64,000 bases of DNA, from contig NC_018020.1 in the NCBI RefSeq assembly GCF_000266885.1, positions 248,001 to 312,000 of the forward strand, written 5' to 3'. Within the stretch, counting starts at the first letter, position 1. Every line of letters starts with the position of its first letter. The position numbers and the translations under genes were made by a program. This stretch comes from Turneriella parva DSM 21527 (GTDB lineage: Bacteria; Spirochaetota; Leptospiria; Turneriellales; Turneriellaceae). The notes beneath the pieces are model-generated. The model worked only from the letters and a program-made list of their open reading frames with translations. It had not been told where the DNA came from and did no database searches. Of the stretch, positions 3,848 to 19,606 are shown piece by piece.

Positions 3848-4246
3848 ATGAGAAAAACTCTGATCTCTGCGACGCTGGCTGTTCTTGCCGTCTGCGGTAT
3901 TTCTGCCAAAAAAAGCGAGACTCTGTGTTTTGCCAATGAAGGATTAAAAGAAAAGCAGACAATACGCTTCGAAGTCAGCAACAACATAATCTCCAAAGGG
4001 AGATTTATCCGCGAGAACTACGAAGAAGACGCGCCAAGAACTTCGGCATTTACAGGTTCAAAAACGGGCACGGTTCTGGTCATTGAATTCAAGGGCAAGA
4101 CACCCTACCCCACGCCCCCCAAATCAGACACAATTGTCTGGAAGCTCGGCAAGCAAGGCCTTGTGGTTTCGATGTACGGTAAGAACTACGAAACCAACAA
4201 GTGGTCTGCGTACGATGCGGTCTTCACCGCCTGCAAAACAGAATAA
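3848..4246 (+). CDS. Small secreted protein of unknown function
   Basis: The product has about 132 residues. The N-terminus (MRKTLISATLAVLAVCGISA) looks like a Sec signal peptide cut after ISA. The mature part is polar and probably beta-rich, with two cysteines (CFANEG near the start and TACKTE at the end) that could form a disulfide. An in-frame GTG six bases upstream is possible. The ATG is preferred because AGAAG lies about 9 nt before it. The gene follows the TolC gene by 37 nt in the same direction and may be a third member of that operon. I do not recognise the family. Confidence 0.6.
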   Translation: MRKTLISATLAVLAVCGISAKKSETLCFANEGLKEKQTIRFEVSNNIISKGRFIRENYEEDAPRTSAFTGSKTGTVLVIEFKGKTPYPTPPKSDTIVWKLGKQGLVVSMYGKNYETNKWSAYDAVFTACKTE

Positions 4247-4267
4247 AAATGTGCGCCCGAATGGAGT

Positions 4268-4407
4268 CGGTCAACGGCGCCGCCTGAAAAATCCGAGGCC
4301 TCGCACTTTGCTCTTCGCAAAGTGCTGCTAAAGCGGCCAAGAGGCCTGCCTCGGATTTTTCAATCTCGTTAAGAGCAGAATCTTGCGCGTCGGCGCTTCG
4401 TTGACCT
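4268..4407. repeat. MITE-like insertion with terminal inverted repeats
   Basis: The segment inside the T arm of the broken tRNA-Arg copy begins with GGTCAACGGCGCCG and ends with CGGCGCTTCGTTGACC, an inverted pair with a 2-nt bulge. Inside are a second inverted pair (GAAAAATCCGAGGCCTC against GAGGCCTGCCTCGGATTTTTC) and a small hairpin (GCACTTTG-CTCTTCG-CAAAGTGC). It has no coding capacity. Nested palindromes and small size fit a miniature inverted-repeat element, but no second copy is seen in the window. Confidence 0.5.
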
Positions 4408-4456
4408 GCAAGAACTATTGACCTTCAGATTCGTAGTCTGACAATCTATCCAGCTG

Positions 4457-4503
4457 TGACCGAGGCAGTTCGTCCGCGAACTGCGGAGGTCTCCGTCTTC
4501 GGT
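4457..4503 (-). repeat. D-arm insert of tRNA-Arg copy, carries shared 18-nt core
   Basis: On the minus strand the segment starts ACCGAAGACGGAGA and contains the hairpin GCAGTTCG-CGGA-CGAACTGC. It separates TAGC from TCACAGCTGG in the broken tRNA-Arg copy. The 18-mer TAGCACCGAAGACGGAGA (4507 to 4490) occurs again at 13104-13121, in the broken copy beside tRNA-Met, at the equivalent tRNA position. Confidence 0.6.
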
Positions 4504-4536
4504 GCTAGGGCGCCTGGGAAAAGCCTTGGAAAATTG

Positions 4537-4610
4537 TGCGCCCGAATGGAGTCGAACCATTGACCTTCAGATTCGTAGTCTGACACTCTATCCAGCTGAG
4601 CTACGGGCGC
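4537..4610 (-). tRNA. tRNA-Arg (anticodon ACG)
   Basis: The 74-nt minus-strand sequence folds as a cloverleaf. The acceptor stem is GCGCCCG/CGGGCGC with discriminator A, and the D arm contains AGCTCAGCTGGATAGAG. The anticodon loop is CTACGAA, giving anticodon ACG, and the T arm contains GGTTCGACTCC. CCA is not encoded. A degenerate copy lies directly downstream on the same strand. Confidence 0.95.
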
Positions 4611-13096: not shown

Positions 13097-13180
13097 GGGC
13101 ACATAGCACCGAAGACGGAGAGCTACAGCGTTTTGGGAAAAACGCTTTCGCTCACAGTTGGTTAGAGGATGCTATGTGCC
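13097..13180 (+). pseudogene. tRNA-Met-like remnant interrupted at the D arm
   Basis: GGGCACATAGC (13097-13107) repeats the 5' end of the adjacent tRNA-Met. It is followed by an insert beginning ACCGAAGACGGAGA with an 8-bp hairpin (AGCGTTTT-GGGA-AAAACGCT). Then CTCACAGTTGGTTAGAG resumes the tRNA D arm, with an extra CA relative to the intact gene. The copy then ends with TGCTATGTGCC (13170-13180), which is the reverse complement of 13098-13108, so the whole remnant can fold into a long stem-loop. The anticodon and T arms are missing. The insert matches the one beside tRNA-Arg in sequence and position. Confidence 0.65.
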
Positions 13181-13184
13181 GCAA

Positions 13185-13258
13185 GGGCACATAGCTCAGT
13201 TGGTTAGAGCGGCGGACTCATAATCCGTTGGTCCCAGGTTCAAGTCCTGGTGTGCCCA
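13185..13258 (+). tRNA. tRNA-Met (CAT anticodon; Ile2 not excluded)
   Basis: The 74-nt cloverleaf has acceptor stem GGGCACA/TGTGCCC with discriminator A. The D arm contains AGCTCAGTTGGTTAGAGC and the anticodon loop is CTCATAA, giving CAT. The T arm contains GGTTCAAGTCC. The first acceptor pair is matched G-C, so it is not the typical initiator. A CAT anticodon can also be lysidine-modified tRNA-Ile2, which sequence alone does not settle. Confidence 0.92.
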
Positions 13259-19404: not shown

Positions 19405-19606
19405 TAGCTACGGAGCTTATGGAGGTCGAAACGCGGCGTCAAATACAGGTTGTCGAGCGGCCGCACGCCGATTCAAGGTTTTTCGAGCAAAAAGCTGCGG
19501 CAGCGCAGCGCTTTAGTCGTCGACCAAGAGGTCACCGACCTATTGGCAGGCGTTTGCTCGCAAACGCCGAGGCCGCAGATTTTTGAGCCTCTGGACAACC
19601 AGGGCG
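19405..19606. other. Intergenic stretch with one hairpin
   Basis: No credible ORF is seen. The only structure found is GGCGTTTG-CTCG-CAAACGCC (19549-19568), downstream of the dienelactone-hydrolase-like gene. It lacks a T-run and is at best a weak terminator. The promoter for the mutase gene should lie near 19410-19480, but no convincing -35/-10 pair stands out. Confidence 0.4.

Follow-up and report, generated by a model that had tools for sequence, protein, structure and literature searches.

Directly 3' of the intact tRNA-Arg(ACG) gene of Turneriella parva lies a second, split copy of the same tRNA, which is read here, with a probability of about 0.6, as a dead extra copy hit by two different palindromic insertion elements, one of them R1; such elements would be non-autonomous, would prefer GCTC sites where DNA can form hairpins and would survive only in spare tRNA copies. 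Small palindromic repeats fill many bacterial genomes and, to our knowledge, the way of moving is not known for several of their classes. The insertion site of R1 can be read exactly, a single finished genome contains occupied as well as unoccupied versions of its targets, and in tRNA D arms it enters at one fixed point; how a ~30-nt hairpin inserts itself thus becomes directly testable in a cultured, free-living spirochaete. By its layout, R1 may be the bacterial equivalent of the double-hairpin elements known from mitochondria.

The tRNA-Arg(ACG) locus and its split copy

The window is the whole stretch of DNA analysed, 64,000 nucleotides of a T. parva genome of 4,409,302 bases in two contigs; coordinates prefixed C1 are those of a contig. 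The locus comprises the following features:

4536-4610, minus strand: intact tRNA-Arg(ACG) (ARAGORN; Rfam tRNA model, 68.4 bits)
4251-4514, minus strand: second, split tRNA-Arg copy as a whole (repeat blocks in common with the gene; fold z -5.7)
4504-4513, minus strand: 5' acceptor strand and start of the D arm of the copy, GCGCCCTAGC, one G lost (sequence compared with 4600-4610)
4457-4503, minus strand: D-arm insert, the R1 double hairpin, in place of T12 of GCTCAG (R1 model, 63.6 bits, C1:252456-252505; fold z -2.9)
4412-4456, minus strand: D loop, anticodon arm and T-stem 5' strand of the copy, two mismatches (repeat alignment with the gene)
4270-4411, minus strand: T-loop insert between nt 56 and 57, closed by GGTCAACG/CGTTGACC (sequence; fold)
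4286-4361, plus strand: R2 three-way-junction repeat within the T-loop insert (R2 model, 89.7 bits; fold z -7.2)
4251-4269, minus strand: T-stem 3' strand and acceptor 3' strand of the copy (repeat alignment with the gene)

Read along the tRNA strand, the copy runs from GCGCCC-TAGC (4513-4504) through a first insert (4503-4457), a central part (4456-4412) and a second insert (4411-4270) to its 3' end (4269-4251). Repeat comparison aligns it with the intact gene in two blocks of the same order, 45 nt at 96% identity (4412-4456 against 4554-4598) and 25 nt at 96% (4245-4269 against 4530-4554), a similarity far above chance. The original prediction of a second tRNA-Arg(ACG) lying directly 3' of the gene, with all parts in order, two splits (47 nt at the D arm, 142 nt at the T arm) and two mismatches over its 45-nt central part, is borne out by these collinear blocks, their identity and both inserts. 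The shorter insert lies in the D stem at tRNA position 12, the longer one in the T loop between positions 56 and 57. The duplication had also been called fairly recent, which is unproven, as the identity could also have been kept high by tandem re-duplication or by gene conversion with the adjacent gene as donor.

One of the two mismatches lies in the D stem and the other in the T stem, and one acceptor G is gone; because of these changes, the split tRNA-Arg is not a working tRNA. It fails the cloverleaf test for a functional tRNA gene, and both ARAGORN and the Rfam tRNA model call only 4536-4610 (minus strand), the sole tRNA-Arg(ACG) met in the T. parva searches made. The whole split copy nonetheless folds far better than shuffled sequence. 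At E<=1, Rfam yields on this locus only the tRNA model and a sub-threshold match to plastid ycf2, antisense to the tRNA, so a known RNA family is rejected as the identity of the inserts. The two inserts belong to different repeat families. A plain tRNA pseudogene that picked up inserts by chance, from no family in particular, is scarcely credible: damage to the copy and its absence from the ARAGORN and Rfam calls would fit, but both inserts hold dispersed structured families and the D-arm position is identical in many tRNAs, and this reading is refuted by the R1 family matches and the tRNA enrichment given below.

Syntenic relatives provide empty sites, as the original prediction had proposed to look for. 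The neighbouring 436-aa gene is common to T. parva, G002 and G003, the latter two being both of the checkable syntenic relatives, and neither has a second tRNA-Arg(ACG) copy. G004 possesses two half-copies with R1 upstream of its tRNA-Arg(ACG), in a layout unlike that of the window. The relatives G001-G006 are draft metagenome assemblies, in which arrays may be mis-assembled or truncated.

The R1 double hairpin and its insertion site

R1 is 27-60 nt long and consists of two adjacent hairpins: [W]CCG-AAGA-CGG(AG), followed by a GACC..GGTC stem that is often extended by a variable inner hairpin. Its short form reads CCG-AAGA-CGG + GACCC-GAAA-CGGGTC. Hairpin 1 swaps CCG/CGG for CTG/CAG or CGG/CCG (CTG-AAGA-CAG, CGG-AAGA-CCG) with pairing kept. 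Hairpin 2 covaries, with 98.7% of cells paired and 5 double-change cells against 1.7 expected (0/500 shuffles), in an alignment that was not fitted to the structure.

A covariance model built from 11 copies, their tRNA flanks trimmed, identifies 27 R1 copies in T. parva and 103 across the genus, in 7/7 Turneriella genomes; like those of R2, these counts rest on model searches whose E-values are rough. In 54 further genomes, from the same family, order, class or phylum but outside the genus, this model finds no R1, which is thus confined to the genus Turneriella among the 61 genomes searched. Independently of the model, the exact R1 12-mer occurs at 17 sites in T. parva, 6 of them inside tRNA copies, versus 1 site for the reversed pattern. 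An autonomous element with R1 ends was considered and rejected, all 17/17 exact motifs in T. parva being short elements. Searched by term, the T. parva genome paper makes no reference to palindromic repeats (PMC3746428).

In nearly every context examined, insertion converts C-T-C into C-[W CCG ... TC R]-C (W = A/T, R = A/G), the T being replaced; with C-T-C when empty and C-W...R-C when filled, no flank is duplicated. In tRNAs the site is GC-T-CAG, positions 10-15, the T being nt 12, and the preferred target is GCTCA. The T. parva palindrome TTCGACAGGCTCACCATGA illustrates this within one genome: five sites are empty and one is filled, as TTCGACAGGC[R1]CACCATGA, at 2,008,511. Further filled sites lie in AGGGTGAC palindromes, in CCCCTCTCC/GGAGAGGGG palindromes, in long palindromes with GCTGCGCTCGCTGCGG and in R2 repeats. 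An inverted repeat with a stem of at least 8 bp spans 20% of R1 sites, compared with 1.4% of control sites, which are ordinary C-T-C sites of the window. Folding at the site is a preference and not a strict rule, many sites having no spanning inverted repeat.

That inverted repeats arise and stay perfect by replication template switching near tRNAs, with R1 spread by switching and gene conversion and no transposase, is distinctly improbable. Stems that vary freely and remain perfect are consistent with such a process, as are the many units that close with the reverse complement of the tRNA 5' strand and the inverted tRNA-Met 5' end of G003 described below; it leaves unexplained the invariant WCCGAAGACGGAG core, the exact C-T-C replacement and the presence of R1 in unrelated palindromes.

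To note, long (~260-nt) palindromic repeats with R1 flank ORFs at a cassette-like spacing (loci L178, L175 and L202). An integron reading of the long R1-hosting palindromes is rejected: no canonical attC core motifs turn up there, and the integron integrase model stays below its cut-off in 7/7 genomes.

R1 units beside tRNA genes

Across the genus, ARAGORN calls a tRNA no more than 300 bp away from 32/103 R1 copies, against 0.58% expected (p ~1e-45 if independent, a value that is only indicative as tandem copies are of limited independence). In T. parva alone, 4 of ~24 independent R1 loci are near a tRNA (p ~1e-5). The model was seeded mostly with tRNA-side copies and may favour them, whereas the exact 12-mer count (6/17) is unseeded. 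tRNA genes thus look like a favoured landing site of R1. The suggestion that elements target tRNA genes stands in so far as R1 enters one D-arm position in at least eight kinds of tRNA, in copies neighbouring Arg(ACG), Arg(TCT), Met, Asn, Asp, His, Val(TAC) and Val(GAC); it does not extend to the ~2/3 of R1 copies that lie away from tRNAs, in other palindromes with the identical C-T-C target, nor to R2, which is mostly unlinked to tRNAs.

The R1-bearing tRNA copies are extra, often partial, and stand beside an intact gene in two forms. The first is a whole copy 3' of the gene, as for Arg(ACG) in the window, Arg(TCT) in T. parva, G004 and G006, and Val(TAC) in T. parva. The Val(TAC) locus (C1:2327400-2328500) harbors three near-identical split copies in tandem; R1 occupies their D arm, and a palindromic insert interrupts the anticodon arm. 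The second form is a 5' half-copy upstream of the gene, found for Met, His, Val(GAC), Arg(ACG) of G004 and Arg(TCT) of G005; many of these are closed by the tRNA 5' strand in reverse complement. The Met half-copies (in 4 species) and the Asn half-copies (in G002, G004 and G006) are probably transcribed, since they are located between a TTGACG promoter-like box and the gene. The window contains one Met unit:

13097-13180, plus strand: unit immediately upstream of tRNA-Met, assembled from the tRNA-Met 5' end, R1, the D loop and the tRNA 5' end in reverse complement (fold z -4.5)
13108-13154, plus strand: R1 within this unit (65 bits, C1:261106-261155)
13185-13258, plus strand: intact tRNA-Met(CAT) (ARAGORN)

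This locus is syntenic across the genus, with a common upstream 496-aa gene; the G003 contig matches instead in the downstream genes. One R1 unit is present in T. parva and in G001, two in G004 and in G006, while G002, G005 and G003 have no R1 there and supply further empty sites. Three bases upstream of its tRNA-Met gene, G003 has 20 nt that perfectly repeat the tRNA 5' end in inverted orientation, with no R1; this is likely a template-switch scar. In G002, an intrinsic-terminator-like hairpin with a T run separates the promoter-like box from tRNA-Met.

A split form conserved in relatives, which the original prediction had named as pointing to another function, is encountered in part: split Arg(TCT) occurs in three species and R1 units precede tRNA-Met in four. 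As these units recur across species, some function of R1 units is possible. At the orthologous Asn, Met and Arg(TCT) units, compensatory change points to selection acting on the structure, or to correction of the palindromes, and not to decay, and the recurrence of units in orthologous tRNA leaders exceeds a purely neutral load; both count against insertion debris. It nevertheless appears unlikely that R1-bearing tRNA mimics are maintained by selection as functional parts of the pre-tRNA leader or trailer, be it as folding or processing decoys or as protein binding sites. While the Asn and Met units sit between promoter-like box and intact tRNA with R1 stems changed yet paired, and the acceptor and T stems of split Arg(TCT) can still pair in T. 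parva, G004 and G006, units are wholly missing at the same locus in some species, the layout varies among 5' half-copies, 3' full copies and tandem arrays, the anticodon stem is broken in the G004 Arg(TCT) copy, and most R1 copies are distant from tRNAs. That selection maintains decoy units at the tRNA genes of Turneriella is rather improbable. In such units, located in the leader or trailer of the pre-tRNA, a mobile double hairpin would take the place of the D arm, and sometimes of the T loop, of a mimic of the whole tRNA or of its 5' half; together they would amount to a genus-wide tuning of tRNA processing built from a structure-seeking insertion element.

If the split tRNA-Arg is instead a dead extra copy hit by insertion elements, R1 would enter C-T-C, preferably GCTCA, replacing the T, and would go preferentially where DNA folds: tRNA D arms, REP-like and terminator-like palindromes, and repeats such as R2. 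Its substrate might be folded or single-stranded DNA (or RNA), the tRNA D arm presenting GCTCAG within a hairpin, and its mobility would be provided in trans by an enzyme. R1 would be seen only in spare tRNA copies because a hit in a single working tRNA gene would be lethal and lost, lethality acting as a filter; hits in extra copies (often partial or inverted) adjoining the intact gene would persist, and tandem duplication of the tRNA unit could afterwards raise the number of repeats along with it. The comparison covers a single genome of each species, and no transposition between strains was caught.

Known systems, R2 and the other T-loop inserts

The double-hairpin elements (DHE) of Allomyces mitochondria and the repetitive hairpin elements of sponge mtDNA are adjacent hairpin pairs, dispersed, variably present in close relatives and located inside RNA genes; an RNA intermediate has been proposed for the Allomyces DHE because target duplications are lacking (PMC2800124). 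R1 resembles DHE in these respects, the two adjacent hairpins and the missing target-site duplication included; the likeness is one of layout. It differs from them in residing on a bacterial chromosome, not a mitochondrial one, in its strict C-T-C replacement, and in occupying extra tRNA copies where DHE occupy the working gene.

REPs are defined by a 5' GTRG tetranucleotide before the palindrome and by a RAYT transposase (PMC3686654), while CGTC-tagged REPs, which occur in Spirochaetes, are without a known transposase (PMC3733652). Like REP/REPIN sequences, R1 is a short, genus-specific palindromic repeat with variable stems and a conserved tag. However, its consensus (WCCGAAGACGGAG-stem) has no GTRG head, it has two hairpins instead of one, and no cognate Y1 gene flanked by the repeats is found: neither R1 nor R2 shows a convincing motif within 1.5 kb of any Y1 transposase gene (3 in T. 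parva, 7 in relatives). Membership of R1 in the REP/RAYT class is therefore rejected. Some R1-hosting palindromes look like CGTC-type REPs, by resemblance only.

Rickettsia palindromic elements (RPE) are 105-146 bp long with terminal inverted repeats, many in reading frames and others in tmRNA and M1 RNA (PMC2229807). R1 shares with them the presence of bacterial palindromic repeats within RNA genes; at 27-60 nt and in spare tRNA copies it is distinct from RPE, which hit the working RNA gene. Integrative elements that target tRNA genes use tyrosine integrases and have an att core at the tRNA 3' end. The window locus is reminiscent of these in its intact tRNA beside a partial copy, but the R1 site is the D arm and there is no att core at the tRNA 3' end. 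Among the ORFs near 4.2 kb, judged by reading, none is recognised as integrase-like.

The T-loop insert of the window is a composite holding R2, a three-way junction in which the letters at the junction (CTC, TGCTAAAGC and T) are conserved and the stems vary freely; 92% of cells are paired and 15/21 pairs show double changes (0/500 shuffles). The R2 model finds 50 copies in T. parva and R2 in 7/7 Turneriella genomes, as well as six matches in one other genus of the family and two weak ones in another family. A second copy is present in the window:

19489-19585, minus strand: R2 (40.5 bits, C1:267489-267585)

The T-loop 56/57 site also accommodates other inserts. One T. parva Val(TAC) copy has a reversed R1 there, and split Arg(TCT) copies that bear R1 in their D arm have a different double hairpin (GTCTGCGC..GCGCAGAC), which is not R2 and is common to T. 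parva (L179), G006 (L057) and G004 (L198). R2 is also found inside larger nested palindromes, many of them terminator-like, and an R1-like element is nested within one R2 (L042). Many T. parva R2 copies lie at the centre of a longer palindrome with many branches, AGCAGGCTCCGG...CCGGAAGCCTGCT, whose repeats are highly similar (e.g. L256, L257, L268, L269, L272 and L274).
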